In this document: positions 1,230 to 60,246 of the stretch, one piece after another
Position numbering within the stretch: position 1 is the stretch's first letter
How the letters are laid out: every line of letters starts with the position of its first letter
Source of the DNA: a virus
Direction: 5' to 3' (one strand)
IMG/VR virus record: IMGVR_UViG_3300032311_001249
Coordinates: 25,935-89,934 of that record
Length of the DNA: 64,000 nucleotides
Position numbers and translations under genes: made by a program
Notes under the pieces: generated by a model
What the model was told of the DNA's origin: nothing
Seen by the model: the letters and a program-made list of their open reading frames with translations, nothing else
Database searches by the model: none

Positions 1230-1757
1230 ATGAACTACAAGCAATTTTTTAATAAATTACTACAAGAAGCTGTTAATCCTACACATGAGATACCAGATGA
1301 TGCTATTAATGGTATTTTGGATGATGACACAAATCCAGACGAATTCAGAAACGACATTAGCGTTAACGGAGCACCAAAAAGTAGCGTAGATGATGCTAAG
1401 AATTTATGGGAGAATGAAACCTCTATTTCTGGTTCAACTCCAGAAGAAAAGAAAGTTTCCATCAAAAAAACTGAAAACTTTTTAACAAAATTAAACACTT
1501 ACAAGAGCAATCTTAAAAATTTAAGCCCAGAAAAAAAATATACTGATATTGCTATTCTTGCAGATTTAGTGTCTTCTGATCCTGACATGAGTGAAAAATA
1601 TACTAAACTTAATGCTAAAATAGAAAAACTTAAAAAAGCGGAAGAATTGAGAAAACAAGCAGAACAAATGGAACAAGAGGCATCTAGTTCTGAATCTGAT
1701 GTAAATGATTCTGGTTTTGATTCACAAGCAGAACCACTGCCTAGTCCCCAAGCTTAA
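1230..1757 (+). CDS. candidate internal head protein with capsid-targeting-like N-terminus
   Basis: The 175-residue product is of unknown family. It starts MNYKQFFNKLLQEA, which fits a T4-like capsid-targeting peptide: an aromatic/hydrophobic helix ending in L-Q-E at residues 11-13, a possible prohead-protease site. The rest is hydrophilic and acidic, with a Lys/Glu/Gln-rich helix near residues 120-150 and a Ser/Pro/acid tail, and no cysteine. A late-type promoter precedes it and it stands alone on the plus strand between leftward replication genes. Its 3' end overlaps the primase gene by 17 bases, and a terminator for it lies inside the primase gene. Internal location is inferred from the N-terminus and promoter only. 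Confidence 0.6.
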   Translation: MNYKQFFNKLLQEAVNPTHEIPDDAINGILDDDTNPDEFRNDISVNGAPKSSVDDAKNLWENETSISGSTPEEKKVSIKKTENFLTKLNTYKSNLKNLSPEKKYTDIAILADLVSSDPDMSEKYTKLNAKIEKLKKAEELRKQAEQMEQEASSSESDVNDSGFDSQAEPLPSPQA

Positions 1758-2790: not shown

Positions 2791-3234
2791 ATGACAAAAA
2801 ATTTTGATTTTTTCTATGAACAATTAATAAAAGAGGTTTTTACATCCAAAAATAAAAGGAGAGAAAATCGTTATGGGTTGAATGAACCTAATACTAGTTC
2901 AAAGATCAGAGCCGTCAGATTGTTTCCTAGAAAAACAGACTCACAAGATACTAAAATAGGTAATTCTCAACAATATGTTGGAAACTACTGGAAAAAAGAT
3001 GGAATAAGAACCAACAAATCTGAGAAAACAGCAACAGAAAGAGCGATAGCTAATGGAACTGGTGGTCATTTGAGAATAAAAGGTGTTAATCCTAAAAAAC
3101 CGGGAGCCAAAGTAAACTCCAAACAAGGAGATATGGAAGTCAAATATTCTCTTGGTAATGGAATGTATAAAGTGGGTAAAACTGGTAAAACACAGTTTAA
3201 AAATGTAGAAAAGATATTCAGCAAACAAGATTAA
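2791..3234 (+). CDS. small basic protein with capsid-targeting-like N-terminus
   Basis: The 147-residue product has no recognised family. It begins MTKNFDFFYEQLIKEV, so the candidate targeting peptide ends in I-K-E at residues 13-15. The body is basic and Gly/Lys/Asn-rich (for example GGHLRIKGVNPKKPGAK), as expected for a DNA-associated internal protein, and has no cysteine. The upstream 18 bases hold an A/T-rich TTTATAAAAT element rather than a Shine-Dalgarno sequence. It is the first gene of the rightward late block and diverges from primase. A role inside the capsid is inferred. Confidence 0.6.
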   Translation: MTKNFDFFYEQLIKEVFTSKNKRRENRYGLNEPNTSSKIRAVRLFPRKTDSQDTKIGNSQQYVGNYWKKDGIRTNKSEKTATERAIANGTGGHLRIKGVNPKKPGAKVNSKQGDMEVKYSLGNGMYKVGKTGKTQFKNVEKIFSKQD

Positions 3235-32792: not shown

Positions 32793-32798
32793 TTTTTT

Positions 32799-33419
32799 CT
32801 AACTATATAAAAATTTAGTTCCATTAGATACATAAGTATCTATATATTTCATAGACGGAATAATAGTAACTTTATCAGGAGTCTTACTATGAATATCTTT
32901 TACCATATCACAAACATGTTCTTCAAATATTTTTCCAAGATCATTCACTTCTGTTTCTAATGTAAAATATTGTTTAAATATATTTTTATTACAACCAAAA
33001 AATACAGTACTTACGTGTCTATCGTAATCTCTAGTTAATGTATAGAAATCATGATTTTTACTTATTATTGATTCACAGTCGGGAGAAAAATATCTTCCAG
33101 ATATTTTGAAAAACACATCTGAATCTTTTAAAAAATAAGAATTATCTAATACAAACAATAGTGTATCTTTTTCTCCGTGTCCTTTACCTTTTCCTATAGC
33201 GGTATTTTGTGTAATAGATAAATATTCTATTCGATCTGAATATTCTATAAATTTATTCTTCAAAAAACTTAAATCATAATTAGAGTTTTCTGCAAAAATA
33301 ATATTTAAATTAGTTTTTTGTAAAAAATTATTTAAAGCATTAATATAATGTGATTTACGTGTTTCGATATTATTTCTACTAAGTTGTGGACAACCTTCTA
33401 CATTTATAGTGGCAGTCAT
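32799..33419 (-). CDS. glycosyltransferase-like protein
   Basis: The 206-residue product begins MTATINVEGCPQLSRNNIETRKSHYINAL and continues with NLNIIFAENSNYDLSFLK and a KGKGHGEKDTLLFVL segment, then DVFFKISGRY. This order is seen in transferases of polysaccharide loci, where a KGYGE-like motif is followed by W/F-K-x-x-GRY. I start it at ATG 33419, seven bases after the upstream stop, not at 33527 inside the upstream gene. Substrate unknown. Confidence 0.6.
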   Translation of the reverse strand: MTATINVEGCPQLSRNNIETRKSHYINALNNFLQKTNLNIIFAENSNYDLSFLKNKFIEYSDRIEYLSITQNTAIGKGKGHGEKDTLLFVLDNSYFLKDSDVFFKISGRYFSPDCESIISKNHDFYTLTRDYDRHVSTVFFGCNKNIFKQYFTLETEVNDLGKIFEEHVCDMVKDIHSKTPDKVTIIPSMKYIDTYVSNGTKFLYS

Positions 33420-33426
33420 TATTAAA

Positions 33427-37526: not shown

Positions 37527-38265
37527 ATTTGTTATATAATTCGTTTTTAATATCAATATTAACTTTATATTGATGATTTATTTTATTGTTTATTTGATTT
37601 TTTATTCCTTGTGCCATATTGTTTACATTTTTGGAATCAAGAATACATTTAAAATTATCAACATATATCAGTTTGTTAACAATCATCTGATCGGTGATGG
37701 GATAGTTTATCTTTGCTAAAACTTTAGACATTTCGTGAATAATCTTTTGATAAAACAAAGAAATACTAGAAAAATTTCCCAATATAAGACCACTATTTAT
37801 AACTATATTGTGTTTTACTATATCAAATACATTCTGACCATAACACACCATGCACCAAGTCTTATTAGTGTCGCAGTCATTAAAAGTTAAATCTTCTAAA
37901 CTCAACCAAACATCATCATGAGGCAATTCAAAAGGATTTATTTTAAAATAAACATCATTCATATCACAGTAAAAAATATCATGATCTTTCAAAGATTCTT
38001 TATATTTTTCTAAAAATAAATGTATATAAATTATTTTGTTGTTGTACGGGGATGTTTGAAACAACACATCAAATAATTTAGCATCAACCACTTGAATATT
38101 CTGAGAATTCAGAAATTCTATTAGTCTATCATCCACATTTTTTAGTATGACAGAAATATCGCCCTTGTAATATTCTCTAAGACTTTTTATAGTGACTTTT
38201 ATACCAGAAAAGTCATACTTTTGGCCTTCCATATACATTACAACCAATTGTTTATTTTCTGCCAT
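37519..38265 (-). CDS. GT8-like putative glycosyltransferase
   Basis: The 248-residue protein has a GT-A-like fold pattern with IFYCDMNDVYFKINPF, a D-x-N-D variant of the metal-binding motif, and NIVINSGLILGNF, where GT8-like enzymes have a N-x-G-x-x-x motif. A late DQMIVNKLIY segment fits the same fold. It overlaps the preceding gene by 14 bases. The donor and acceptor are unknown. Confidence 0.6.
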   Translation of the reverse strand: MAENKQLVVMYMEGQKYDFSGIKVTIKSLREYYKGDISVILKNVDDRLIEFLNSQNIQVVDAKLFDVLFQTSPYNNKIIYIHLFLEKYKESLKDHDIFYCDMNDVYFKINPFELPHDDVWLSLEDLTFNDCDTNKTWCMVCYGQNVFDIVKHNIVINSGLILGNFSSISLFYQKIIHEMSKVLAKINYPITDQMIVNKLIYVDNFKCILDSKNVNNMAQGIKNQINNKINHQYKVNIDIKNELYNKYE

Positions 38266-38989
38266 ATTTTTGTTTTATTTCTTTAAATTTATTCTTGAAA
38301 TTTATCATATCAAAGTCGTACAACTCCATTATGTCTTTACCCCATTTATTATTAAAATAATTTCTTCCTTTTTGAATTCTATCCATATATTCTAGACTTT
38401 TTCCAGTTATAGTAGATTCTCCATCATCTATGAGTTCTAGGTATTGGGATAAATCGAACGGAGATATAAAAATACCAAAGGAAGGAGCAAATCCAAGTCT
38501 ATCAGCTTGTAATTCCAAATCAGCATGTTCCCAACCATTAAAATAATTTTCATCAAATGTTATTTTTTCTAAAAAGCTTTTATGAAAATAAGAAAAATTT
38601 GCTTCTGTGTTATAACATAAACTAGCTTTTAAATTACCCCATTCTGCTATTCCAATTTTATCATATCTGTAATCATTCCAATTAAAATGTAATAGACCAG
38701 TTTGTTGTGAAAATTCTATACAATATTCCCACACCCTGTTGTCTTTGATCAAACAGTCATCTTCTAATAAAAATATATGTTCACAACCTTTTTCTAACAA
38801 AGACTGTATTGTTATATTTTTACACTTTCCTACCCCAACATTAGTGTCTAATACAACATCCACTGGTACAGAATATTTGTCTTTTCCACCATCTTTGATG
38901 GAAAAGACAACATCCACATGTTTTATAGAATCTTTTATTCTAGAGAATTGTTTTTCTCTGTTGTATGTTATTATTCCTGTCCCTATCAT
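38252..38989 (-). CDS. family-2-like glycosyltransferase
   Basis: The 245-residue product begins MIGTGIITYNREKQFSRI and contains GCEHIFLLEDDCLIKDNRVWEYCIE, an E-D-D donor site identical in surroundings to the enzyme at 40194-41036 (YLFLMEDDVLVKDNRVFQKYIE). A YFNGWEHADLELQADRLG segment matches the acceptor-side helix of the same kind of enzyme. The two genes are probable paralogues. The start overlaps the stop of the AAA gene as TAATG. Confidence 0.78.
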   Translation of the reverse strand: MIGTGIITYNREKQFSRIKDSIKHVDVVFSIKDGGKDKYSVPVDVVLDTNVGVGKCKNITIQSLLEKGCEHIFLLEDDCLIKDNRVWEYCIEFSQQTGLLHFNWNDYRYDKIGIAEWGNLKASLCYNTEANFSYFHKSFLEKITFDENYFNGWEHADLELQADRLGFAPSFGIFISPFDLSQYLELIDDGESTITGKSLEYMDRIQKGRNYFNNKWGKDIMELYDFDMINFKNKFKEIKQKYGRK

Positions 38990-40164
38990 TAATTATGTAC
39001 AAATCCCATTACTCTCTTTTCCTTTTTAACGGAAAAATCATTCTCATCATTATAAATTTCTGAAAGAGTCATCTCTTCTTTTGGAGGAGTGTGATCGTAG
39101 AGTTTTCTATAAAGTCTTTCTGTTTTTTCCTTATTTAAAGGTCCGAATTTATGTTTTAAAAACATTCTGCCTCTTCTTTTCAAAGCAGGATCAATTTTAT
39201 CTTCATCAGTATTGAATGTGGCTATAATCTTAAAATTAAGAACATCAGCCATAATTCCATCACATATGTTTAATAGAATAGAGATGATACTGTTGTCTGA
39301 TGAATCTTCTCTGTTTATAAGAACTTTTTCAGCATCTTCTATAATTAGAAGACTGTCTTTTTCTCTTCTTATGACTGGAAAAAATGCTGGGTCTGCCATA
39401 CTTTGAACAAAATAAGGAGGAATGTAAATCTTTTTAAGACCATCATCTCTGTTCAAGAGATATTTAATATAGTTTGTTTTCCCACTGCCCGGATCACCAT
39501 GAAGCAGCACTAATTTATTATTTGGAATAGAAAAATCATTTATCCAATTTTCTATTTTTCTGTGTGTTTTCTCAAAATCATCATTATAATTATCCTCTAA
39601 TGAAAGATCAAATCCCTTTACTTTATGAGGAGTAAGAACAATTTCATTATATTCATTTTTTTCAAAAAGTAATATTTTTCCTTTGGTATCCTTTACACTG
39701 TGGTCTGAAAATTTTTCTATTAATTCAAAAACTAAATTAGTATCTACATTAGCATCAAAACAAACATCTATACTTCCGATTACAGATTCTTTGTTATCAT
39801 TAACATCAACATCAGAAACAGAAACAGCAACGGGAAAATCTTCATTACCACTCAAATTAACATCTAACATTATTCTTTTTTCATGATTACTAAAATGAAT
39901 AGTCTCTCTAGTATTTCTTTCATATGTTAAATCTACATTAGAGACCACAAAGTTATTTTGTATCAAATATTTTATAATATCGTCACAACGTGTTAATTTA
40001 TATAACATTCTTGCTTTACTAGGAACACAATTATATTTTAAAGAAAAAATATAACTGCCATGATATGCCATATCTTTAGTAATAGTAAAATTTACATCTT
40101 TATTATTAAATGTTTGGTCATCAAACTTTGCTCCTAGATTTTTAAGTTTTTCTATTATATTCAT
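38989..40164 (-). CDS. AAA+ ATPase
   Basis: The 391-residue protein has a unique N-terminal domain of about 220 residues and a C-terminal AAA+ module: VLLHGDPGSGKTNYI (Walker A), SLLIIEDAEKVL (Walker B), FKIIATFNTDEDKIDPALKRRGRM (sensor 1 and arginine fingers of the BCS1/FtsH type). BCS1-like ATPases remodel proteins, and several phages carry one of unknown role. The start is ATG 40164. A TTGATT-16-TATATT promoter lies five bases upstream. The C-terminal end abuts a glycosyltransferase gene. Confidence 0.8.
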   Translation of the reverse strand: MNIIEKLKNLGAKFDDQTFNNKDVNFTITKDMAYHGSYIFSLKYNCVPSKARMLYKLTRCDDIIKYLIQNNFVVSNVDLTYERNTRETIHFSNHEKRIMLDVNLSGNEDFPVAVSVSDVDVNDNKESVIGSIDVCFDANVDTNLVFELIEKFSDHSVKDTKGKILLFEKNEYNEIVLTPHKVKGFDLSLEDNYNDDFEKTHRKIENWINDFSIPNNKLVLLHGDPGSGKTNYIKYLLNRDDGLKKIYIPPYFVQSMADPAFFPVIRREKDSLLIIEDAEKVLINREDSSDNSIISILLNICDGIMADVLNFKIIATFNTDEDKIDPALKRRGRMFLKHKFGPLNKEKTERLYRKLYDHTPPKEEMTLSEIYNDENDFSVKKEKRVMGFVHN

Positions 40165-40169
40165 AAAGA

Positions 40170-40197
40170 AATATAGCACTGTTGATCATGTAATCAA
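40170..40197 (-). promoter_or_regulatory. sigma-70-like early promoter of the AAA gene
   Basis: TTGATT (40197-40192), a 16-base spacer and TATATT (40175-40170) are followed by five bases before ATG 40164. It overlaps the stop of the preceding gene. Confidence 0.55.
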
Positions 40198-41036
40198 GAT
40201 GATAATAAATTTTTTTGAGAGTATCTTGATTCTATAGTGTTGAGTTTTTCATTCACCTCTTCCACAAGACTATCATCTATTTCATGAGGATATACTTTGT
40301 ATTTTTCTTTAAATATGTTCCAAGACTCTGAAAAATTTTTGAAAAATTCAGGACTTTTTCTAATAACACTGCTCTCATGATTTTTATCTATGTCTTGCAG
40401 ATACAAGAAAGAATCTTCTATATCTGGAAAAAACCAGTAGTTACAACCTAAACCTTTTAAATATGAGAAGTAATAATGGTCTAAATGCTCTGCTGCATTC
40501 ATGTAATTCTCTCCCATATAACCAATATAGTCTAATGTGTTAGCATGATATAACACAAAAGCATGTAAACTATGTTTATACAAATCTACTTTATTGTTTG
40601 TGTATTGCACTGTAAGGCGTTTTAAGGGGGTTCCATCTTCTGACACATTTCCTCCTCCAACACCTCCATGAACGCCGTAGGATAGCTGTCCTGCCCATAA
40701 TCCACTATCAGCAGCAGTCTCTATGTATTTCTGAAAAACTCTGTTGTCTTTTACCAACACATCATCTTCCATAAGAAATAGATATTCATATCCTTTTTGT
40801 TTCATTTCTCTTAATGCAATGTTTTTAGCAATTCCAACTACTGTGGGATTTCTATTGCACTGAATTATTTTAACTCCTTCTGGTCTTTTTTTGAATTGCT
40901 CACCAGCATTAACAACAAAGATTTCTCCTACTGCATCACTATCTATAGATTCTAATACTTTATGAAGAAATTCTTCACGATTACAGGTTATTACCGCTAC
41001 TGCTGTTTTTTCTTTGAATTTATTAATTTCTGACAT
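40194..41036 (-). CDS. family-2 glycosyltransferase
   Basis: The 280-residue enzyme has TAVAVITCNREEFLHKVLESI as the GT2 start, VGIAKNIALREM, and YEYLFLMEDDVLVKDNRVFQKYI as the donor and metal site. It is about 35 residues longer than its paralogue at 38252-38989, with a Gly-rich insert (YGVHGGVGGGNV). It stands alone between the AAA gene and gp47 and has its own early promoter. Confidence 0.82.
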   Translation of the reverse strand: MSEINKFKEKTAVAVITCNREEFLHKVLESIDSDAVGEIFVVNAGEQFKKRPEGVKIIQCNRNPTVVGIAKNIALREMKQKGYEYLFLMEDDVLVKDNRVFQKYIETAADSGLWAGQLSYGVHGGVGGGNVSEDGTPLKRLTVQYTNNKVDLYKHSLHAFVLYHANTLDYIGYMGENYMNAAEHLDHYYFSYLKGLGCNYWFFPDIEDSFLYLQDIDKNHESSVIRKSPEFFKNFSESWNIFKEKYKVYPHEIDDSLVEEVNEKLNTIESRYSQKNLLSS

Positions 41037-42961: not shown

Positions 42962-45529
42962 TTAAAGTTTTATTTTTTTCAAAGAATAATCTATCTTTTG
43001 TTTTTTATATATTTCAAGTCTTTTTCTTAGATGACTTAAAGAATATTGTAAATTGTCAGAGATGTCAAAAATGACAGCTTTATCTTTACTATGATGTTTT
43101 CTCACTGTTCTTCCCACAGTTTGTACTGTTTTCACTCCTCCCTTGCCCATATAGCACAATATGGCATAGTGTAAGTTTTTTATGCTAATACCAGTGGAGA
43201 AACATTTACTCATAACCAGACAAATTATACCTGATTCTTTTTCCATAGAATCTTGAATGCTAGTTCTTTCTTCTGTTGGAGTATCTCCTGTTATAATGCA
43301 TAATTTTTTAGTAGTATTTTTTAAAATTTTTTCCAAAGAATCTATATAGTCTCTTCTATCCACAACAATTATAATATTACCTTCTAATTTTTCAGCTATT
43401 TTTTTAATAATGTCATTTCTTTCTACACAATTTATAACATAATTAAATTCTGCTTCATAAGCATCTGTTGGATTTTGACCCTTGGGAAATACTGGTTTTG
43501 GGGAGTGTTCACAAACCAAAACTTTTACTTCTACATCACTGATGGTCTGTTGTTTTCTTAGTTCATAGCTATTTTTTTCGTATAGTATTGGTCCTATTTT
43601 ACCAACAACATTCCACGATGCCATAATATCGTCCGGGAGTGTTGCTGTTAACCCAAATTTAAAAGGAGTGTTTATATTGTGTATTACTTTACTAATCTTG
43701 TTCTTTTTGTTGTTTATAGTATGAACTTCATCAACAATTACATAGTCGTAATTTTCCACTATTTTCAGGGTTGCTTTAACATCACTGGTTAATATCTGAC
43801 TATTAGCTATAAGAATATTCTGTTTTAAATCTGGAATTTTTCCATCACCCCACATGGTTGTTTGGGGTATTCCGTATTCATGGATGAATGAGAGATACAA
43901 CTGATTTAACAAACTTACATTGGGAACTACCATTAGTATCTTACAGTCTGGTTTGTTGTCTATCAAAGTCTTGCATAGTCCTGCTTGTATAAGAGAATTA
44001 TGAGTTACAGTAAAATCTTTTAATAAAAAAAGTCTATCTCTGCCTTCTACTTCAAATCCATAATATTCTCCTTGCCCAACTTCTTCTACTTTTATTCCTT
44101 TTAAACAAGGATTGTAAAACGGTGTATAATTTTGAGTATTTTTACGCAATATCTTACATGGTATTTTTTGTAAATCACCATTTATATGTACTCTATAATA
44201 TTCGCCTGTTTTTCCAGTTTGAGATGATTTGACACATTTTTTCATATTTGCACTAAAACCTAATGATTTACATAAAAACACAACACTTTCCATAAAACCT
44301 TTTTGTTTCAATGTTAACTCGAAACCTTTGATATTTCCTTTTTTATTTCTTTGTAAGTGTCCATCTGTATCTAAAATACCTGCTAATAATTCTAATCTGT
44401 TACTTTCAGATGAAAATAGATAAACCTCTGGTATATGTTTATTTTTTATTAAGCTTAATTGTTTAAGACTATTAAGAATACTATTTCTGTCATGATATTT
44501 ATTTTCCCCTTCTCTTCCTGTTGTTAAATGATATGTTTTTGCTCTATTATTTAATTTAGATGATGTTCTTATTCTTAGGTTATACTCTTCGGATACGCTA
44601 TTAATATATTTCACTATTTCATCATCCATAGTAGTAACAGAAGGGGTAGCAGAACTTCCGTCTCCTAACCATATACCTAAAAAATAAGCAGGAATCAATT
44701 TTTCTATCTGATCATCATTTATATCTTCTTGTTTCCATCTGATGATGGTTGGTTTCCATGATTTGAGAATATGTTTCTGATATTTGGGTAATTTAAGATA
44801 ATCTTCGACTGATATATTGACTATATCTCCTGATTTAACTTTTTGACCATTGACATAACCATGTTTTTCTTTAGTATTATAACCTTTTTTTGTTTTCCAT
44901 TTACTAGTACCTAATGAAGTTATTTTAAAAGATAGTATATGAGAACTATTAACCACATACTCGTCTATTCCGTCTTTTTGACCAACACTAGAAATTCTAT
45001 ATAATCTGTCTGTTCCCCTTGCTAAAGAAATTACTCTTCTAGGGGTAGAATCCGGTCCCATAAGTAAATCGCCTTGAATTATATCTTCTACCTTTCTAAT
45101 TGATCCGTCAAACATCAATAATTGTGTTCCTTTACCAAAGCATTTACCAGCACCAGTGGCTAGTATTCCTATACCTCTACCATGTTGTAAAAACTCTTTA
45201 AGAGTGTCTTGTTGATAGTCATAATAATCAAATCCTTCTATGGTAGATGCTGTTTTTATGTTTAGATTTGGTTTGTAATTTTTTTGAAATTCTGGTGTAA
45301 TTTGTATTTTGATTGCAAGATTAAGAGTTCTTATATAATTCTCTATTTCAAACCACAAGCCAACTTGAAAAGCTCCTACCGGAGTTATTGCATAGAGTCT
45401 AGGCACAAATTTTCTCATCTGATAAGAGGGATTTTTTATACTAAATTTTTCCCTTATCATTTTTAATAAATGAGATGAACAAGTTATCACTCCATTTTTT
45501 TTAACAAAATCTACTTTTATAATTTCCAA
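42962..45529 (-). CDS. uvsW: DNA helicase UvsW interrupted by an intein
   Basis: The 855-residue precursor is an SF2 helicase of the UvsW type with a 382-residue intein (residues 130-511). The exteins sum to 473 residues (T4 UvsW: 503). They include LATGAGK|S (Walker A, split by the intein), VIVDEVHTIN (DExH), FGLTATLPD (motif III), ITGDTPTEERTSI, CFSTGISIKNLHYAIL and QTVGRTVRKH (motif VI). UvsW remodels forks and R-loops. The N-terminal part (MEIIKVDF...) aligns in pattern with T4 MDIKVHF, so the TTG start at 45529 is accepted. Activity depends on splicing because the P-loop is broken. Confidence 0.92.
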   Translation of the reverse strand: MEIIKVDFVKKNGVITCSSHLLKMIREKFSIKNPSYQMRKFVPRLYAITPVGAFQVGLWFEIENYIRTLNLAIKIQITPEFQKNYKPNLNIKTASTIEGFDYYDYQQDTLKEFLQHGRGIGILATGAGKCFGKGTQLLMFDGSIRKVEDIIQGDLLMGPDSTPRRVISLARGTDRLYRISSVGQKDGIDEYVVNSSHILSFKITSLGTSKWKTKKGYNTKEKHGYVNGQKVKSGDIVNISVEDYLKLPKYQKHILKSWKPTIIRWKQEDINDDQIEKLIPAYFLGIWLGDGSSATPSVTTMDDEIVKYINSVSEEYNLRIRTSSKLNNRAKTYHLTTGREGENKYHDRNSILNSLKQLSLIKNKHIPEVYLFSSESNRLELLAGILDTDGHLQRNKKGNIKGFELTLKQKGFMESVVFLCKSLGFSANMKKCVKSSQTGKTGEYYRVHINGDLQKIPCKILRKNTQNYTPFYNPCLKGIKVEEVGQGEYYGFEVEGRDRLFLLKDFTVTHNSLIQAGLCKTLIDNKPDCKILMVVPNVSLLNQLYLSFIHEYGIPQTTMWGDGKIPDLKQNILIANSQILTSDVKATLKIVENYDYVIVDEVHTINNKKNKISKVIHNINTPFKFGLTATLPDDIMASWNVVGKIGPILYEKNSYELRKQQTISDVEVKVLVCEHSPKPVFPKGQNPTDAYEAEFNYVINCVERNDIIKKIAEKLEGNIIIVVDRRDYIDSLEKILKNTTKKLCIITGDTPTEERTSIQDSMEKESGIICLVMSKCFSTGISIKNLHYAILCYMGKGGVKTVQTVGRTVRKHHSKDKAVIFDISDNLQYSLSHLRKRLEIYKKQKIDYSLKKIKL
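43997..45142 (-). mobile_element. intein with LAGLIDADG homing endonuclease in the UvsW P-loop
   Basis: The insert begins with Cys (CFGKGTQLLMFDGS, block A) and has a VVNSSHIL block B. Next come two LAGLIDADG-type helices with their acidic ends (LGIWLGDGSS and LLAGILDTDGHL), a block F segment YYGFEVEGRDRLFLL, and it ends TVTHN before Ser+1 of the extein. All splice-junction residues are of the functional type. It sits between K and S of GAGKS. It translates through without stops, so it is likely active or recently so. Confidence 0.93.
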
Positions 45530-45570: not shown

Positions 45571-45978
45571 TTATAACTGCTCCATTTTCAATAATTCTAC
45601 AATATTTTTAAAATCAAACCCTATTTGACTAAAAATTTTGTTTACTGCACTGTCTAAAAATTCCACCAATAGCTCTTGTTCTTTTATTTTCTTTTGGATG
45701 CTTTTAAAATCCATTTGAGATTCTAATTTGGAAGCAACCACTGCCTTGCTAAGCTTTAATGGATTGTCTTTTTGTAAAGCATTGTTTAAAAAATTCTCTT
45801 TGATTTCTACCAATTCTAATAATTGTTTTTTACTTTTTATTAGCCTAAAGAGCCATTTATGTTTAACATTAGGAGCACTTAGTTGCTTTTCCATAACATT
45901 AGTTACATCTATTTGTGTGTCCATTTCTATCTCTTTGGAATAATCTTCCATTAATTCCATTGGTTGCTTGTCAGTCAT
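45571..45978 (-). CDS. uvsY: recombination mediator, UvsY-like
   Basis: The 135-residue helical protein has the UvsY size (T4: 137) and layout: a front helix ending in a KHKWLFRLIKSKKQLLELVE segment, a middle DNA-binding stretch, and a late helix LDSAVNKIFSQIGFDFKNIVELLKMEQ. The late helix resembles T4 LDFCSGALDAIKSRGFAIKHIQDMRAFEAG. UvsY loads UvsX on gp32-coated DNA. It lies directly upstream of uvsW, as in T4, where uvsW and uvsY are neighbours. Start at ATG 45978, set by the promoter six bases upstream. Confidence 0.72.
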   Translation of the reverse strand: MTDKQPMELMEDYSKEIEMDTQIDVTNVMEKQLSAPNVKHKWLFRLIKSKKQLLELVEIKENFLNNALQKDNPLKLSKAVVASKLESQMDFKSIQKKIKEQELLVEFLDSAVNKIFSQIGFDFKNIVELLKMEQL

Positions 45979-45984: not shown

Positions 45985-46013
45985 AATGTAACACATTAAT
46001 TATACTTTTTCAA
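45985..46013 (-). promoter_or_regulatory. sigma-70-like early promoter of uvsY, leaderless
   Basis: TTGAAA (46013-46008), a 17-base spacer and TACATT (45990-45985). Six bases follow before ATG 45978, so +1 should be the A of ATG. Confidence 0.6.
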
Positions 46014-46027
46014 GTAAATAATATAAA

Positions 46028-46411
46028 ATGACTAAAAATTTTGACAAATTCATAAAGCAGATAATAGAGAATATAAGTTTTGAATATAACGGTCTATTAA
46101 AAGATGAATGGGTGCATTTTCCCAACATTTCGGAATTTGATTTAAAGAATGGTATATATTTAGATGATTGGGATTTAACCAATTTTACAGAATTTAAACA
46201 ACTTATGAAAAAAGCTGATTCTGAGAAAAGATATATTTTTGGTCAAGCTTATCCGTACAATACTGTTGCTAATATGATGAAAAAAGGAAAAGACAGACAA
46301 GAAGCACAACAAGAATTCCAGAAAGACAGACAAAGATTAATGAATTTTTATAAAAAATTTAATTTTATACATACTCATAAAGGATGGATGTTCAGACCTT
46401 TTAAAGATTAA
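46028..46411 (+). CDS. small protein with capsid-targeting-like N-terminus
   Basis: The 127-residue protein begins MTKNFDKFIKQIIENI, nearly the same as the protein at 2791 (MTKNFDFFYEQLIKEV), with I-I-E at residues 12-14. The remainder contains a charged helix KGKDRQEAQQEFQKDRQRLMNFYKKFNF and ends HTHKGWMFRPFKD. The family is unknown. AGTAAATA seven bases upstream of the ATG is a weak late-type element. It is followed three bases later by the ADP-ribosyltransferase-like gene. Probably an internal head protein. Confidence 0.6.
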   Translation: MTKNFDKFIKQIIENISFEYNGLLKDEWVHFPNISEFDLKNGIYLDDWDLTNFTEFKQLMKKADSEKRYIFGQAYPYNTVANMMKKGKDRQEAQQEFQKDRQRLMNFYKKFNFIHTHKGWMFRPFKD

Positions 46412-46414
46412 TAT

Positions 46415-47200
46415 ATGACCAACAGATTTGATAATTTTTTAAAAAAAATACATGAAAGAGCATTTCATGCAAGCCCATATAATATTTCAGATAATTTTGA
46501 TTTAAAATTTGTAGGAAAAGGTGAAGGAAATAAAACATTTGGATGGGGTTTATATTTTGCAGAAAATCCAAAGGTGTCAAAAGAATATGGGGATTTATTT
46601 TATAGAAGAGGACATGACGAAATTTATATTTATGATGTAGAAATAGATGTAAAAGAAGATGAATTATTAGATTGGGATAAATCATTGGATGAACAGAGTT
46701 CTTTTGTAAAAGATAAAATAAAATATGCTGTAGAATATTTTAGAAGTTATAAATGGAAATCCTATAATGAAAAAGAAGGAACAGTGGTTGACCCTAACGG
46801 AAATCGTTCCAATGATATTATAGCATTTGACGAAAAACAATTAAAAGAAGCACAATATGGAAAGGCGTCTGATTTTTATCAATTTTTAGAATTTTATTCA
46901 AACTCTCAAAAAGATGCTTCTTTAGCTCTTTTAAAAAATGGCATAAAAGGAATAAAATATTTTGATTATCTTTCCAGAGAAAAAAAACAAGGAACTAGAA
47001 ATTTTGTAATTTTTGATGAAAGTCTTGTAAAAATAAATGGTAAAAACATTCATTATTTAAAAGAAATGACAGATGCTAGTGTATTTGGAGCAGATGGTCC
47101 TTATCCAACAGATGATGTTAGAACTCCTTTTGTGATGGGAACATATTCTAGAAAAGGAAAAATTAAAAAAAGAACTAGAAGGAAGAAAAGAAAAAAATAA
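46415..47200 (+). CDS. ADP-ribosyltransferase-like (ART-PolyVal type) with capsid-targeting-like N-terminus
   Basis: The 261-residue protein joins a candidate targeting peptide (MTNRFDNFLKKIHERA, I-H-E at 12-14) directly to an ART-like domain: FHASP (17-21), GEGNKTFGWGLYFAEN (36-51), and LKNGIKGIKYFDYLSRE...GTRNFVIFDESLVKI (about 180-210). These are the first and last conserved motifs of the ADP-ribosyltransferase family found in polyvalent and virion proteins. It ends in a very basic tail. T4 injects the ADP-ribosyltransferase Alt to modify host RNA polymerase. This could be its functional counterpart. It is late, in a pair with the preceding gene. Confidence 0.72.
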   Translation: MTNRFDNFLKKIHERAFHASPYNISDNFDLKFVGKGEGNKTFGWGLYFAENPKVSKEYGDLFYRRGHDEIYIYDVEIDVKEDELLDWDKSLDEQSSFVKDKIKYAVEYFRSYKWKSYNEKEGTVVDPNGNRSNDIIAFDEKQLKEAQYGKASDFYQFLEFYSNSQKDASLALLKNGIKGIKYFDYLSREKKQGTRNFVIFDESLVKINGKNIHYLKEMTDASVFGADGPYPTDDVRTPFVMGTYSRKGKIKKRTRRKKRKK

Positions 47201-47208: not shown

Positions 47209-47622
47209 ATGCAATGGGAAAATGTGCCTGAAAAAATAGAGGATTGGTTTGGATTTGTTTATCGTATAACATGCTTATCCAATAATAAAAAATACATAGG
47301 AAAAAAACAATTTTGGAGTAATCAAAAAAGACCTCCTTTAAAAGGCAAAAAAAGAGGCAGAAGAGTAATTAAAGAAAGTGATTGGAAAGAGTATTATGGT
47401 TCTTCTAATGACTTGAAGGAAGACCTTAAAAAGTATGGAAAAGACTCTTTTAAAAGAGAGATTTTAGAGCTTACCACATGCAAGTGGGAGAGTGCATATC
47501 TTGAGCTTATGTGGCAATTAAAAGAAGATGCTATATTAAGAGAAGACTATTACAATAATATCATAAATATAAGATTGAACGGCCCTCCCAAGGATTTGAC
47601 AGAAAAATACAGTGTAAAATAA
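47209..47622 (+). CDS. GIY-YIG nuclease
   Basis: The 137-residue single-domain nuclease has GFVYRITCLSNNKKYIGKKQFWSN (GIY and YIG motifs at 15-18 and 29-31), a YYGSSNDLKEDLKKYGKDSFKREIL segment with the catalytic Arg, and a Glu in KWESAYLELMWQL. Similar stand-alone proteins are common in T4-like phages and may be homing or DNA-degrading enzymes. No DNA-binding domain is added, so a homing role is uncertain. Confidence 0.85.
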   Translation: MQWENVPEKIEDWFGFVYRITCLSNNKKYIGKKQFWSNQKRPPLKGKKRGRRVIKESDWKEYYGSSNDLKEDLKKYGKDSFKREILELTTCKWESAYLELMWQLKEDAILREDYYNNIINIRLNGPPKDLTEKYSVK

Positions 47623-51316: not shown

Positions 51317-52036
51317 TTAAGTTAAATCAAAACTCTTGTTTGTTCTGTCCTCTATTGCTTTTATAAAATTAGAACAATCCAGCAAGTCGTCTGGATTGCC
51401 AGCATCAAACCAAAAGCCATCAAGTTCATGCACTTTCACATCTTGGTGTATTTCATTCATTTTTAAAATTAAATCCACTATTTCTAATTCTCCTCTGGAG
51501 CTTGGTTTTAAAGTTTTAGCAATTTCGCATGCACTATTTTTTAAAATATATAAACCTATAACAGCTTCATTGTTGATGTATTCTTTTGGTTTTTCCACTA
51601 GAGATATTACTTTGCTGCCATGTCTTACCACCACTCCGTATCTTTCTGGCTTTTTAACCTTGTAAGAGAATATAGTGTTTGTAGAGCATTCTAATGGTTT
51701 GTTGTTGATTATGATATTATCTCCCAAAACTAGTGTTGCATCACTGCCATTCAACCATTCTTGTGCAAGAATAAAAGCTTGTGCTAAACCCTCTGGTTTT
51801 TCTTGAATACAAAAACTAAAATTTGCACAAGTTAAATCTTGCACAACCTTTTTGAAATTTTCAATTTGGTGTGGATTGGTAATGATTAATATATCTTTTA
51901 TTCCCATTCCAACAAGAGTGTTTATTGGAAAATAAATCATGGGATATTTATAAACTGGCAGCAATTGCTTGCTCACAGCTTTTGTTAATGGTGCTAGTCT
52001 TGTTCCACTGCCACCAGCTAAAATTATTCCTTTCAT
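51317..52036 (-). CDS. rmlA: glucose-1-phosphate thymidylyltransferase-like (RmlA, short form)
   Basis: The 239-residue protein has ILAGGSGTRLAPLTKAVSKQLLPVYKYPMIYFPI (pyrophosphorylase signature), LAQAFILAQEWL, TLVLGDNIII, GVVRHGSKVISLVEKPKE, YINNEAVIGLYIL, GELEIVDLILKM and GFWFDAGNPDDLLDCSNFI. It makes dTDP-glucose (or a similar NDP-sugar). About 50 C-terminal residues of the usual 290 are absent, as in short-form RmlA relatives. It follows rmlB by one base in one operon. Confidence 0.9.
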   Translation of the reverse strand: MKGIILAGGSGTRLAPLTKAVSKQLLPVYKYPMIYFPINTLVGMGIKDILIITNPHQIENFKKVVQDLTCANFSFCIQEKPEGLAQAFILAQEWLNGSDATLVLGDNIIINNKPLECSTNTIFSYKVKKPERYGVVVRHGSKVISLVEKPKEYINNEAVIGLYILKNSACEIAKTLKPSSRGELEIVDLILKMNEIHQDVKVHELDGFWFDAGNPDDLLDCSNFIKAIEDRTNKSFDLT

Positions 52037-52037
52037 A

Positions 52038-53036
52038 TCACTTGTTTAAATACCATTTTACAGTTTTTTCAAGACCTTGATTCAAACTTGTGCTTGGACT
52101 CCAATCCAATTCACTATAGCTTTTAAGATAGTCTATCTTGTAAATTTTATCATGACCTTTTCTATCTTGAACAAAACTCACCACATCTTGCAACTGGTGA
52201 TTTGTATTTTGAAAAATATTATATTTGTCCAAAATAATTTTTGTTATTTCCAAATTTGTAACATTTTTATTTGTTCCAAACAGATAGTTTTGACCATTTT
52301 TTCCTTTTTGAATTACTTTTAATATTCCCTCACAGTGGTCATCAACATACAACCAGTCTCTTTTTTGTTGACCATCACCATAAATGGGAATTTTCACACC
52401 ATTCTTTAAATTGTTTATAATTTTGGGAATTAATTTTTCAGAGTGTTGACCAAACCCATAGTTGTTGCTGCAATTGGTTATTATATAAGGAAAATTAAAT
52501 GTATGACCCAGACTTTTAACTATTAATTCTGCACAAGCTTTGCTAGCACTATAAGGATTGTTGGGATGTAAAATACTATATTCATCAAAAGCCACTCCAT
52601 TTTGGTCTTCCACACTACCAAACACTTCATCAGTGGAAACCTGAATAAAAAGACCATTCACTGCATTTTTATTCCAGTAATTTTTACAATTTTCCATTAA
52701 AATACCACAAGAATAAACATTGTTTTGTATAAAACTGCTTATGCTGCTTATGCTGTTGTCCACATGAGTGCTAGCAGCAAAATTTATCACCAAATCAATT
52801 TTGTGTTGAGATAAAAATATTTCGTTGATATATTTAATATCACTCTTATAAAATGTATATCTTTCATCATAGTACAATTCATTTTTTCCATTAATTGCGC
52901 TATATTCACATGAATCCACATTAATTACTTTTTCAAAATCAATTGATTTTGAATTGAATAATACTCTGAGAAAGTTCCAGCCTATAAATCCCAGACCACC
53001 AGTTACCAGAATATTGTTGAATCTTCTTTGTTCCAT
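52038..53036 (-). CDS. rmlB: dTDP-glucose 4,6-dehydratase-like (RmlB)
   Basis: The 332-residue extended SDR has VTGGLGFIGWNFLRVL, FYKSDIKYI, VINFAASTHVDNSI, QVSTDEVFGSVED (T-D-E catalytic acid pair), NPYSASKACAELIVKSLG (Y-x-x-x-K), TNCSNNYGFGQHSEKLIPKII and RDWLYVDDHCEGIL. All are RmlB features. It forms dTDP-4-keto-6-deoxyglucose. It overlaps the upstream rmlD-like gene by 34 bases. No rmlC was seen in the window. Confidence 0.93.
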   Translation of the reverse strand: MEQRRFNNILVTGGLGFIGWNFLRVLFNSKSIDFEKVINVDSCEYSAINGKNELYYDERYTFYKSDIKYINEIFLSQHKIDLVINFAASTHVDNSISSISSFIQNNVYSCGILMENCKNYWNKNAVNGLFIQVSTDEVFGSVEDQNGVAFDEYSILHPNNPYSASKACAELIVKSLGHTFNFPYIITNCSNNYGFGQHSEKLIPKIINNLKNGVKIPIYGDGQQKRDWLYVDDHCEGILKVIQKGKNGQNYLFGTNKNVTNLEITKIILDKYNIFQNTNHQLQDVVSFVQDRKGHDKIYKIDYLKSYSELDWSPSTSLNQGLEKTVKWYLNK

Positions 53037-53887
53037 ATTTCAAATGTTTTTATCAAACTTTCCTCTACTGGTAAAAAGTGTATTCCAGCATTTTCTATTT
53101 TATTACTATCCAAAACACAATTGCTTCTGGGAGTTTTTACTGTTTTTAAAAATTCACTCTCATCACTAAAATACTCATAACAATTTTTGGTAATATTAAA
53201 TTTTTTAGCAATATTCAAAACTTCTTTTGCATTTATGCCTCCACTATTAGTCATGTTATAAATTCCATAAGGAATTTTTTTCTCTATGCATTTGTAGCAG
53301 TTTTTAACAAACTCATCCAAATTTGTCAAGCTGTTTGCAGCACTCCAAATTTTATCATACTTTAGTATTTTACCAATGTAATTTTTTTCATTTTCTAAAT
53401 GATTAAAAGGCATTCTTAGTCTCCATATATAACTCTTGTGCCAAGTTTTTTGCACCAAACTTTCTGCCAGAGCTTTTGTACCACTATACCAGCTACAATT
53501 TTTAAAATCAAAGCAAAAATTAGGAAAGTCTGTTTCTTTATACTCTTTCCACCATTCAACTTTATCTTCTTGATAAATGCAACCACTGCCCACATATCCC
53601 AATGGAATATTGTATTTTTCACAAGCTTGTGCTATTTTTTCAGCTAATATCACATTAACAAATAAACATTCTTGTTTGTTGTCTTCACAGCCATCCACAT
53701 TGGGTTTTCCAGTATATCCAATGCAATTCAAAACAAAAGTTGGGTTGTACACTCTTATCATTTCTTCTGCCCAATAACTAGTGGGTTTATCTTTTAAACT
53801 AACAACACTATATGGAATTTCTTTATAATCAAAATATTCCTGAAACCGCTTGCTAACATATCCGTTTTTACCAAAGATTAGTATCAT
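53003..53887 (-). CDS. rmlD: dTDP-4-dehydrorhamnose-reductase-like (RmlD)
   Basis: The 294-residue protein begins MILIFGKNGYVSKRFQEYF. It continues with VLNCIGYTGKPNVDGCEDNK, YVGSGCIYQEDK (SGC in place of STD), SWYSGTKALAESL (Y-x-x-x-K) and a C-terminal KTVKTPRSNCVLDSNKIE, which is RmlD-like (P-R-x-x-x-x-L). It reduces the keto-sugar made by RmlB. ATG 53887 is preferred to 53893 by comparison with the promoter. It is first of the rml operon. Confidence 0.82.
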   Translation of the reverse strand: MILIFGKNGYVSKRFQEYFDYKEIPYSVVSLKDKPTSYWAEEMIRVYNPTFVLNCIGYTGKPNVDGCEDNKQECLFVNVILAEKIAQACEKYNIPLGYVGSGCIYQEDKVEWWKEYKETDFPNFCFDFKNCSWYSGTKALAESLVQKTWHKSYIWRLRMPFNHLENEKNYIGKILKYDKIWSAANSLTNLDEFVKNCYKCIEKKIPYGIYNMTNSGGINAKEVLNIAKKFNITKNCYEYFSDESEFLKTVKTPRSNCVLDSNKIENAGIHFLPVEESLIKTFEIWNKEDSTIFW

Positions 53888-53891
53888 TATC

Positions 53892-53921
53892 ATACTAATC
53901 TTTATTTTGGTAGTGTTTCAA
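53892..53921 (-). promoter_or_regulatory. sigma-70-like early promoter of the rml operon
   Basis: TTGAAA (53921-53916), an 18-base spacer and TAGTAT (53897-53892), followed by four bases before ATG 53887. Confidence 0.45.
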
Positions 53922-54292: not shown

Positions 54293-56896
54293 ATGAAGTT
54301 TAATCAATTTTTTCAAAAAACCTTAGTAAGTGAAATAAGTCAGAGCGTAATAGATAAACTACCCTATAATTTACAACAGGAATTATCAAAAAATAAAATG
54401 CCATTTAATAAAATATTTGGAAATCAATTAAGATTGATAGAGCCATTAAGAGGTACGTCACAATATGGTGAAACTATAAGAAATCTTTTGTCAGATGACT
54501 TTGAATTTGATTTTGAAAAATGGACCGGAACTAAATTAACAGATAAAGATAAGAAAAATCCCACCAGAATAGGAAAATTATTAAACAATAAAAAAAGAGA
54601 GCTATTAAAGAAAATATCAGACCTTCAAGAAGAATTAAAGACTCCCCCAAAAACTGAGGTTGTTGTTTTTCATCATTCTGTGAAAAGTGGTTGGATTGAA
54701 AAGTATAAGATACAAATAAAAGAAATTGATGATCTTTTAAAGGTGAATGACCTACAAAAAGCTCATATTTCTACCACTAAATCACAATACAGTATAATTT
54801 ATAGCAGAGTTCCTGTTGATGTTGTGAGAATGAGTGATTTTTCTTGGAGGAGTTGTCATAGTGAGGGAGGAGACTATTTTTATTGTGCATTAGCAGATGC
54901 AGTGCTTAATGCTGGAATAGCATATTTGGTTGACACTCAACAATTAATACAATTTGCTGGTGGTCAAGATAAAATACAATCATTTTTACAACAAGATGAA
55001 ATTTTTAAAGATTCAAAAAGAGCAATATCAGGAATACAGCCTCTTGCAAGAATAAGAATAAGAAATGTGATAGACTCTCAGGGAAATAGTATAGCAGTTC
55101 CCAGCACGAAAATATACAAAGACAAAGATTTGAAAGGAGTTGATGAAACTTTTAAAGATCAAGTGTTGATGTGGGCAAAAAAACAAGATGTTTCTAATTA
55201 TGAATGGGAGGACACTTTAACTCTTAAAGGTGGTAGTTATCAGGATGCTAATGTTGATGTGAAAACCATGATAAAACAGATATGGGGTAAAGATATTAGT
55301 TATGATGTGTCAGAAGATGAGGATGAATTTAGAGATGAACAAGACGAGGAAAATGACCACATCGAAGAACAGTTTTGGGATAACGTTAGAGAAGAAATAG
55401 ATGTTGAAAAGATTTTTAGAGATGCTCTAGGAAGGGATTATGAAGAAAACTTTACAGTTGATTTGGATTTGTATAATGGTGAATTAAAATTAGAATATGA
55501 TTTAAGTGGTGAATTTTTAGAGTTCTTATCTAAAAAATCAACAAATCTTGATAAAAAAACAATAAGATTGCAAAGACAAACAACAGCATATGATAAAAAT
55601 TTCACAGTTTTCATAGACCCCAAAAACAGAAAAGATATACAGTTTACATCAGTTAAATCATTTGTGTTATATGATTATGATCATGATGTGGAAACAGGAT
55701 ATTTTGATTATAGAGGATTTGTATATAGTATAGAAAAATATATAGAGAGTGTAATATCAGCATTTTTAGAGGAATCGTACGATGTTAGCCATCCACAGTA
55801 TTTGAGAGCTGCTATGAATAAAAAAATAGCAAAATATTATGATATAGAATTTCCAAAATATGATGAGGAAAATGTATCAGAATTAATAGCGTGGCATGAA
55901 CAATCAGAACTTTTTCATAAAACAATACTACCAAAATTAGATTATAAGTTAACAAGAGCTAATGATGGATATAATTTAGATTTTAACTTGAAACAAGAAA
56001 GTAAGCAATATGTTCTAGAAACTATAGATAATATGGAAAATTTCTTATATCATATAATTAATAAAGAATATAAAAATTTATACGAGAATAATTATATAGT
56101 TACACTAAAAAAGACATTATTCATCAAACGTCCTGAAAACATATCATCAGATGTAAATGCTAGAAGTTTTACAATAGGCATGGATAAACAAGGATATGAT
56201 AAATTAAAAGTGGTGGTGGATTCATATTCAAAAGTAGATTACATAGAGTATAAAATAGCAATAGTGCTTGAGTCTGATTTAAACAAAATTATAGACGATG
56301 GCAGTTATTTGCAGTGGCTGGATGCACTTTATTTTTTAAGAGATGAAGTTGCTCCAGAAATACAAGACAAAAAAACAGTGGAAGAATTGGAAAACTATAC
56401 TAAAAAGTTTATTAAAGATGAATATTTAAAAAAACAAGGACAGATGGATTTGGACCTTTCTAGTATAAATAGAAATATGAAAAATAAATTTGATCTTTAT
56501 ATACAAAAAATCTGGACAGAGAGTTTGGCAAACATGGGCACAGGAGGTTTATCCAACAGAAGTGGCGCGAACACACCTTCATCATCTAGTTATGGCACAT
56601 CATCTTCGACCACATCTAATACTCAGACTTCTCAAAACAAACCAATTTTTAGTAAAGATAAAAAAAATAAAATGAATGTTTCATCCATTGACATGGATAA
56701 TATGCTATTAAATCCTCAAACTAAACTAGATGATGTTTTAAAAGATAAAGACAATCAAAATTCAATTCTCACATACATATCATCATCCATGAGCGATCCT
56801 AACTATAAAAATAAAGAAAAAATTCAAAATTTGATAAAAAATAATAAAAATCTTAGTGATGCATTATCAAAATTTATCATAGGAGGTGCAAAATAA
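54293..56896 (+). CDS. large virion-like protein with capsid-targeting-like N-terminus
   Basis: The 867-residue protein starts MKFNQFFQKTLVSEIS (V-S-E at residues 12-14), again like an internal-protein leader. That start is preferred to TTG 54203 or ATG 54233. A conserved-looking block VDVVRMSDFSWRSCHSEGGDYFYCALADAV lies near residues 175-205, with Cys, His and Trp residues that might be catalytic or metal-binding. The middle is strongly acidic, and the end is a Ser/Thr/Asn-rich linker followed by a small helical domain. It is likely an ejected enzyme or capsid component. Family not recognised with confidence. Confidence 0.6.
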   Translation: MKFNQFFQKTLVSEISQSVIDKLPYNLQQELSKNKMPFNKIFGNQLRLIEPLRGTSQYGETIRNLLSDDFEFDFEKWTGTKLTDKDKKNPTRIGKLLNNKKRELLKKISDLQEELKTPPKTEVVVFHHSVKSGWIEKYKIQIKEIDDLLKVNDLQKAHISTTKSQYSIIYSRVPVDVVRMSDFSWRSCHSEGGDYFYCALADAVLNAGIAYLVDTQQLIQFAGGQDKIQSFLQQDEIFKDSKRAISGIQPLARIRIRNVIDSQGNSIAVPSTKIYKDKDLKGVDETFKDQVLMWAKKQDVSNYEWEDTLTLKGGSYQDANVDVKTMIKQIWGKDISYDVSEDEDEFRDEQDEENDHIEEQFWDNVREEIDVEKIFRDALGRDYEENFTVDLDLYNGELKLEYDLSGEFLEFLSKKSTNLDKKTIRLQRQTTAYDKNFTVFIDPKNRKDIQFTSVKSFVLYDYDHDVETGYFDYRGFVYSIEKYIESVISAFLEESYDVSHPQYLRAAMNKKIAKYYDIEFPKYDEENVSELIAWHEQSELFHKTILPKLDYKLTRANDGYNLDFNLKQESKQYVLETIDNMENFLYHIINKEYKNLYENNYIVTLKKTLFIKRPENISSDVNARSFTIGMDKQGYDKLKVVVDSYSKVDYIEYKIAIVLESDLNKIIDDGSYLQWLDALYFLRDEVAPEIQDKKTVEELENYTKKFIKDEYLKKQGQMDLDLSSINRNMKNKFDLYIQKIWTESLANMGTGGLSNRSGANTPSSSSYGTSSSTTSNTQTSQNKPIFSKDKKNKMNVSSIDMDNMLLNPQTKLDDVLKDKDNQNSILTYISSSMSDPNYKNKEKIQNLIKNNKNLSDALSKFIIGGAK

Positions 56897-56897: not shown

Positions 56898-57533
56898 ATG
56901 AATTATAATTTTGATAAATATATCTATAAAGTTTTTCTAGAACAACCAGAAAATAATGCTCCAGATGAAAACCAACAAAATGATGTTGCAGAGCAAGAAC
57001 CACAGGATGTAGGACAACAAGAACCACAGGTTTTTCCAGAAGAATTAGAACTAGCAAAACTTGCTATCAGAGCTATATATTTTAATATATCATCCAAAGG
57101 TGTTCATAAACTTAAATTAAAGTATAAAGGTCGCATAATACCATTTGAGAAAATCTCTGATTTCTTTGAAAAAACAAAGAAAATATTTCCAGTTTTAGGA
57201 TTCGTGGAATGGGCGATGGATCGTTACGAAGGTTTTAGTAGTAAATGGACAGAACAACCAGAGATAAAAGGAGATAGTATAATAACAAAAATTAAAAAAT
57301 TTAATAAAAATCTCCCAGAAGAAAATCGTTTGGACAATGGTAAAAGAGTTTATTGGACCAGAATCATTCTCAATTGTTTATTACACGGAACCACTAATTT
57401 TAACATTAATATAAGTGATGTTAATGAACAAAATATAAAAGAAATTTTTAGACTTTTAAAACAACATTTTGGTAGTGATACCAGAGGAATGTTTGCCGGA
57501 GAAGGGGATTGGAAAGGACCGGGAACTTTTTAA
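56898..57533 (+). CDS. unknown protein with capsid-targeting-like N-terminus
   Basis: The 211-residue product from MNYNFDKYIYKVFLEQ has F-L-E at 13-15, then a Gln/Glu/Pro-rich linker (NQQNDVAEQEPQDVGQQEPQ) and a folded domain from about residue 45 with KLKLKYKGRIIPFEKISDFF and ILNCLLHGTTNFNINISDVNEQNIKEIF. It ends GEGDWKGPGTF. AGGAGG 12-17 bases before the ATG is one of the few true Shine-Dalgarno sequences here. It is directly behind the 867-residue protein, so they are co-transcribed. Confidence 0.6.
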   Translation: MNYNFDKYIYKVFLEQPENNAPDENQQNDVAEQEPQDVGQQEPQVFPEELELAKLAIRAIYFNISSKGVHKLKLKYKGRIIPFEKISDFFEKTKKIFPVLGFVEWAMDRYEGFSSKWTEQPEIKGDSIITKIKKFNKNLPEENRLDNGKRVYWTRIILNCLLHGTTNFNINISDVNEQNIKEIFRLLKQHFGSDTRGMFAGEGDWKGPGTF

Positions 57534-59400: not shown

Positions 59401-60246
59401 ATGACTTTCCAAGATTTAATTAATACTATTTTATTAAAAGAAGATTCTGTAGAAAATATACAAATGATAGGAGATTGGGATTCTCCAAAACAATATGGAT
59501 GGAGTAAATCTGATACTGGTATATTAAAATCTACCAAAGGTTTAGAAAAAATAAAAACTAAATGGAAAATAGATGAACCAGTTGATATTTATTTATTAAA
59601 AGGAAAAGAATATAGAAAATATGTTGAATTGGGAAAAGTTTCTTTTGAATTTATCAGAGATACTTTAAAATTAGATGTTCCCATAGACAGTGACCACATA
59701 ACAATATTTTATACACAGAATACTGGTGCTGAAAAAATACCAGCAACTCCTTGGACTCTTGCTCATAGATTTGGACATGCTCTTGCTAGAAGAGATGGAA
59801 TGGCCTTAAAAAACCAAGCATACGAAAATCTTCGAAAAACTATTGAAGAACTTTTCGATTCTGTTGGTAAAATAGTTTATGGCAGAACAACAAAGGATTA
59901 TTATTCTACAAATAATACATCTCTTAGGAAATATAGAAAAGAGTTGGCTCATGCACTAGGAACTTTTAAAAGTGCCAGAAACAGAAATCTAAGAGCAGAT
60001 TTTGAATTTACTAATGAAATAATAGCTCAATTTATAATAACAGGAGATGTTAAATTAAATAGAGAATTTCCAAGAGTTTTACCATTAATATATGCTTGGG
60101 GCAAACCTTCTGGATATTACTCTAAATCATTATCACAGGAACAAAAAGATGATTTAGAGAATATTTTAGACATAAAAGAAAGTGAGTTGCGTTATGATAT
60201 TAGTAGTGTTATCTCTGATGCAGTGGGCAACATTTATGTTATGTAA
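59401..60246 (+). CDS. late protein with capsid-targeting-like N-terminus and H-x-x-x-H motif
   Basis: The 281-residue product begins MTFQDLINTILLKED (L-K-E at 12-14). Near residue 121 it has TPWTLAHRFGHALARRDG, an H-x-x-x-H motif like the zincin helix but with Phe at the Glu position (zincins have H-E-x-x-H). A later EFTNEIIAQFI could supply Glu. It may be an inactive or altered metallopeptidase-like domain. The end is YVM. An exact TATAAATA promoter supports a late, virion role. Function is not proven. Confidence 0.65.
   Translation: MTFQDLINTILLKEDSVENIQMIGDWDSPKQYGWSKSDTGILKSTKGLEKIKTKWKIDEPVDIYLLKGKEYRKYVELGKVSFEFIRDTLKLDVPIDSDHITIFYTQNTGAEKIPATPWTLAHRFGHALARRDGMALKNQAYENLRKTIEELFDSVGKIVYGRTTKDYYSTNNTSLRKYRKELAHALGTFKSARNRNLRADFEFTNEIIAQFIITGDVKLNREFPRVLPLIYAWGKPSGYYSKSLSQEQKDDLENILDIKESELRYDISSVISDAVGNIYVM

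Follow-up and report, generated by a model that had tools for sequence, protein, structure and literature searches.

The 261-amino-acid product of an open reading frame in a T4-like phage is probably (we put the chance at roughly 70%) a capsid-packaged ADP-ribosyltransferase (ART) that is injected as the cargo of an exchangeable internal-head-protein cassette. The window, i.e., the whole 64,000-nucleotide stretch that was analyzed, comprises bases 25935 to 89934 of an 89,934-base viral contig. In related phages the slot of the ART holds other proteins or nothing and therefore looks like an interchangeable delivery cassette.

Architecture of the protein and its ART domain

The frame spans exactly positions 46415 to 47200 of the window (plus strand), starts with ATG, and encodes from the N to the C terminus a 14-residue leader, an ART domain, and a basic tail of 44 residues (Table 1). 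The motifs FHASP, GEGNKTFGWGLYFAEN, and GTRNFVIFDE are all present in its translation. The leader lies directly in front of the catalytic domain, as the preliminary description had stated, and ends three residues ahead of the catalytic His. The same description saw an ART fused to a capsid-targeting-like leader; the leader is indeed of the T4 type and a gp21-type protease is encoded, but the protein is not a simple fusion, because the ART has the leader on one side and a conserved basic tail on the other. This tail and the sister leader gene directly upstream (46028-46411) were absent from that account. The tail begins with MTDASVFGADGPYPTDD, finishes in a Lys/Arg run (14 K/R and 4 D/E in total), and matched no known family. 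Two further LxE sites are located within the ART domain (91 and 143), besides those at both boundaries. Among cultured phage records, none matched the tail and none carried a leader-ART protein.

Table 1. Features of the ART locus and other leader-bearing genes (window positions, unless another locus is named)
Feature	Position	Strand	Remarks
uvsY homologue, divergent neighbor	45571..45978	-	Pfam UvsY 3.9e-5; anchor for finding relatives
Late-promoter-like element AGTAAATA	46013..46020	+	just 5' of the first leader gene ATG
Sister leader gene, 127 aa	46028..46411	+	leader MTKNFDKFIKQIIE and orphan domain "cargo C"; no tail
Capsid-targeting-like leader MTNRFDNFLKKIHE	46415..46456	+	F5/F8 spaced like T4 targeting residues 4/7; predicted cut between IHE and R
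ART-PolyVal-type ADP-ribosyltransferase domain, residues 15-217	46457..47065	+	H18, Y47, N196, D201
Second (L/I)xE site at the ART/tail boundary, LKE before M	47057..47065	+	motif recurs at this junction in relatives whose cargo differs
Conserved basic tail, 44 aa, residues 218-261	47066..47197	+	predicted disordered; leader and tail alone in relatives
SegE-like GIY-YIG endonuclease gene	47209..47622	+	Pfam SegE_GIY-YIG 9.6e-36; diverges along with the chassis between near-identical phages
Leader-bearing orphan gene	1230..1757	+	MNYKQFFNKLLQE, then A
Leader-bearing orphan gene, strongly basic	2791..3234	+	MTKNFDFFYEQLIKE, then V; net +18
Leader-bearing 867-aa orphan	54293..56896	+	second internal leader MKNKFDLYIQKIWTE at 56477, TATAAATA ahead at 56464
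Leader-bearing gene	56898..57533	+	MNYNFDKYIYKVFLE, then Q; conserved in relatives
Leader-bearing orphan gene	59401..60246	+	MTFQDLINTILLKE, then D; TATAAATA late promoter
gp21-type prohead protease	L004:6419-7096		Peptidase_S77 5e-19; PHROG head maturation protease 6.1e-34

By its predicted fold, its residues, and an alignment of 41 sequences (70 viral loci with relatives were collected), the domain is of the ART-PolyVal type. ART-PolyVal was also the best Pfam family in the profile search (E = 7.9e-4), scoring 20.6 bits where the cut-off is 31.2 and hence below the gathering score, which is why we speak of an ART-PolyVal-type domain and not of a Pfam member. In the alignment, Y47 and V198 are conserved in 41/41 sequences, N196 in 40/41, H18 in 34/41, and D201 in 28/41; some PolyVal members thus lack the Asp. 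AlphaFold gave a pLDDT of 32.6 with a two-sequence input, and the model used here was built from the 41-sequence alignment (mean pLDDT of 83). It has a confident ART core, mostly 87-98 over residues 41-210, and a disordered tail. H18 lies in strand E14-20, Y47 in strand E46-49, and D201 just past strand 195-199 (NFVIFD), N196 being seemingly equivalent in position to the PARP Glu and the Asp following five residues on. A Foldseek search of BFVD matched the model to phage polyvalent and ART-PolyVal models with E values down to 1.3e-15. Among solved structures, the first match was the cyanophage A4 pre-ejectosome protein 9k3a_B (E = 4e-4), followed by weak matches to the MbcT toxin, PARPs, and tankyrases, and a sequence search for a solved structure of the ART found none.

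An H in strand 1, a Y in strand 2, and a D in strand 5 define the ART-PolyVal (Tox-ART-HYD2) family and set it apart from Alt, which has R-S-E (Iyer et al. 2017, PMC5512222). The fold and the H-Y-(N)-D residues support the earlier assignment of the motifs to this type, and an active site with H18 first and Y47 second rules out membership in the T4 Alt/VIP2 (R-S-E) ARTs. Judging from the sequence, ADP-ribosyltransferase catalysis is likely but unproven, because the third residue is an Asn at the apparent PARP-Glu position and the Asp follows five residues later.

Leaders and late promoters in a T4-like phage

The contig encodes a gp23 major capsid protein (2.5e-87), a gp21-type protease (5e-19), and UvsY (3.9e-5), markers which identify the phage as T4-like. 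Its major capsid protein is ~31% identical to cyanomyovirus capsid proteins, and the only UvsY match among cultured phage records came from Sinorhizobium phage phiN3, where the protein is annotated as UvsY.

In the ten-residue capsid-targeting sequence (CTS) of T4, residues 4 and 7 serve in targeting, and the gp21 cut falls after (L/I)xE (PMC9026906). The ART leader follows these rules with the aromatic residues F5 and F8, three apart, and then IHE. Such a pattern is short; its strict form was taken from the T4 literature rules alone, and the relaxed form was partly informed by the present data. The strict pattern was found in 5 contig genes versus 0.6 in shuffles (0/1000 reached 5) and the relaxed one in 10 versus 3.1 ± 1.6 (0/1000 reached 10), so the leaders of the contig are beyond chance. 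Of the ten relaxed hits, two are probably spurious (contig 24545 and 71930, both minus strand), which leaves CTS-like leaders on ~8 contig genes. In two relatives the relaxed pattern was likewise in excess (5/1000 and 0/1000 shuffles), and the strict pattern showed no significant excess (62/1000 and 143/1000 shuffles).

The canonical late promoter motif TATAAATA precedes the protease, scaffold, and major capsid protein genes by 13-17 nt. The element in front of the sister gene, a variant of this motif at the late-promoter position, presumably drives 46028-47200, and the sequence TTTCAAGTAAATAxTATAAAATG is kept at the equivalent place in most relatives.

Several observations concern leader genes elsewhere. 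The downstream part of the counterpart of 54293-56896 is a separate 138-aa gene in G012. A 2H phosphoesterase related to the anti-CBASS protein Acb1 (L077:2198-2737, minus strand; same gene at L080:775-1314, plus strand; 2_5_RNA_ligase2 6.1e-8, Acb1 2.1e-4) starts with the capsid-targeting-like leader MKFTEFYQLFIE, followed by N, and may therefore be an injected counter-defense enzyme. Also in L077 (2734-3672, minus strand), a lysozyme-like protein (Phage_lysozyme 9.7e-4, below the cut-off) has a similar leader (MKFDELFHLVVE, then H). Both are leader genes of relatives, and they are of the kind to be expected if such genes encode injected effectors. In L082 (16183-16665, minus strand), a 160-aa acidic protein with the leader MDFDKLYKLFE and an FHGS motif had no Pfam match but may be a second cargo of the ART-like type, and at G012:2104 a 52-aa fragment has FFHGS after a leader similar to that of L082. 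Another phage encodes, beside a PhoH-like gene, a leader-ART protein that lacks the tail (MNFDKLCNSILE, then RVFHGTP; L102:2959-3852, plus strand).

A slot with varied contents

The loci compared were 30 found via UvsY and 26 found via the tail, many of them on the same contigs. Between uvsY and the SegE-like gene, related phages have the same leader and tail with different contents. The chassis is empty in some, with leader and tail only (58-61 aa; e.g., L038, L039, L050, L053, and L184), and in others it encloses cargo C, an orphan domain of ~110 aa (e.g., L029, L031, L033, and L037), another orphan domain (L048), or an ART (the window, L045, and L042, the last with a further domain after the tail). 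In the distant 208-kb phage represented by L058, a GNAT acetyltransferase (Pfam 5.3e-15) precedes a similar tail, and the leader is weaker. A cargo/tail junction of the (L/I)xE type recurs with different cargo (LKE, IKE, IEE, LSE, and IWE; absent in L058), which predicts cargo release. The additional domain of L042 (2767-3130, minus strand; CQDASSFL...HTWLEVEGIIVDPT) is transglutaminase- or cysteine-peptidase-like by eye and has no Pfam match.

In the window, cargo C without a tail is followed after 3 bases by leader, ART, and tail, as if a leader-ART unit had been inserted between cargo C and the tail. This cargo C shares 41-54% identity with the leader-cargo C-tail proteins of six relatives (alignment A8) and has no match in Pfam or the PDB and none convincing in PHROG. 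That it might be a GNAT, as suspected by eye from its ending, was unsupported by Pfam, PHROGs, and the PDB.

Replacement of the slot as a block is supported by three comparisons. Over 86.8 kb the genomes of L042 and L045 share 98.2% identity, and their UvsY is identical, whereas the DNA of the chassis and the SegE gene is only 47-61% identical; L042 is longer there by 300 nt, and identity is back at ~100% on both sides. The ART tree conflicts with the genome relationship, as the window groups with L045 against L042 (99/90). L037 has two leader genes in tandem that are identical over 36 bases, promoter through leader start; by its sequence, this repeat marks a duplicated cassette. A test of whether leader genes in general make up what varies between G001 and G012 gave no significant support (p = 0.12 and 0.70).

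Other features of the neighborhood were recorded in passing. The uvsW-like helicase gene of the window (42962-45529, minus strand) is split at Walker A by an intein-like insert (GAGK/CFGKGT...VTHN/S) that is absent from the relative in L002. In L027 (331-1485, minus strand) and L028 (310-1470, minus strand), a single frame joins the SegE-like GIY-YIG protein to a large-terminase-looking domain, the two being separate in other relatives. By eye, the minus strand of the window carries extended arrays of sugar-nucleotide, glycosyltransferase-like, and methyltransferase-like genes at 30064-41036 and 51317-53893.

There may be an even chance that the slot represents a dedicated two-ended effector-loading cassette, in which promoter-leader and basic-tail arms with protease sites would allow ARTs, acetyltransferases, and other cargo to be swapped, possibly driven by the GIY-YIG endonuclease, so that the enzyme injected as infection begins would differ from phage to phage. 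A literature search of partial coverage yielded no account of a chassis with two ends whose enzymatic cargo is exchangeable. As a search rule, anything between leader and tail, including domains without a family, becomes a candidate injected effector.

Proposed mode of action and comparison with known systems

We infer packaging, both cuts, injection, catalysis, and action on a host target in the following order. The precursor would be made late in infection from a late promoter, and the leader, in which F5 and F8 would play the part of T4 CTS residues 4 and 7, would carry it into the prohead core; the basic tail probably aids retention on the scaffold or the DNA, a role that is a guess. The gp21-type protease would cut after IHE-14 and LKE-217 and thus release a free ART and a basic peptide. 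The ART would then be ejected together with the DNA and use NAD+ to modify a host macromolecule before phage gene expression. Recombination between the conserved promoter-leader and the tail or flanking sequences would reload the slot, resulting in different effectors at the same place across this phage group.

The domain might instead have lost catalysis and now serve as a DNA- or capsid-binding module of a virion structural or core protein. The Asn at the third catalytic position, in place of a PARP-type Glu, would be compatible with such a loss, and cyanophage A4 9k3a_B exemplifies that these domains can sit in structural ejection proteins. We nevertheless consider this unlikely: the three chassis ARTs are only ~50% identical, yet H18, Y47, N196, and D201 are kept in all of them, and the unrelated domains or the lack of any domain at this position in relatives argue against a structural need for the ART.

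Equally to be weighed is a protein outside the head, whose "leader" would be an N-terminal helix for another interaction, e.g., with the recombination or replication machinery, and whose ART would act late in the cell like T4 ModA/ModB. Such a role would suit the fixed neighborhood of uvsY and uvsW instead of head genes, and is made quite improbable by gp21-type motifs at both cargo boundaries, the recurrence of this leader type in several late genes that are unrelated, and the late-promoter-like element upstream. Mere coincidence in an AT-rich, Lys/Phe/Glu-rich proteome, leaving a small standalone ART gene, is hardly credible; the motif is short and its strict form is not significant in two relatives, but orthologues keep the leader whether their cargo differs or is missing, and none of the 1000 shuffles reached the leader count of this contig. 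We prefer the reading as an injected internal head protein.

The internal proteins of T4 are diverse and described as having just the CTS in common (PMC3012670); IP1-3 block GmrSD restriction enzymes, a different one each (PMC12373910). IPI, IPII, and IPIII resemble the present protein in their short N-terminal leader with two spaced aromatics and an (L/I)xE, after which gp21 cuts in T4, and in their variable basic bodies; they are known as injected anti-restriction proteins (PMC9026906, PMC12373910). With the gp21-type protease of the phage, the sequence features of a T4-type internal (CTS) protein are present. Unlike in T4, the cargo here is an enzyme that is flanked by a conserved basic tail at the C terminus and by a second predicted cut site, and the chassis is also found without cargo.

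T4 Alt is cut by gp21 at both ends (PMC9026906) and belongs to the R-S-E Alt/VIP2 clade (PMC5512222). Our ART would likewise be head-packaged, with predicted cuts at both ends, and it likely works like Alt; it differs in its H-Y-(N)-D ART-PolyVal active site, its locus, and its size of 261 aa. The earlier proposal of a possible Alt analogue therefore stands for the likely mode of working and not for the enzyme family. The accompanying phrase of an independent way to deliver such an enzyme was overstated, since the proposed route is the known one of the T4 internal proteins, and the difference lies in the family of the enzyme and in the two-ended chassis.

Head-packaged ARTs beyond Alt have been predicted in polyvalent and MuF-fused proteins (PMC5512222, PMC9503650). 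The best solved-structure match, the ART-like domain of cyanophage A4, is part of a phage head assembly, but 9k3a_B is a 1071-residue chain of an ejection assembly with 12% identity, while our protein is small and predicted to be a gp21-processed internal protein. The ART-PolyVal domains of polyvalent proteins belong to the same family and are predicted to be injected host-modifying ARTs (PMC5512222); elsewhere in our search they were mostly found in frames of 1000-2000+ residues, and here the domain is a compact single-domain cargo with a CTS-like leader and a tail. Non-Alt head-injected ARTs have so far been predicted mainly from giant, hard-to-test polyvalent proteins, and a compact enzyme whose leader is clear, with cut sites that are predicted and empty slots as natural controls, makes packaging, processing, and NAD-dependent action directly testable.
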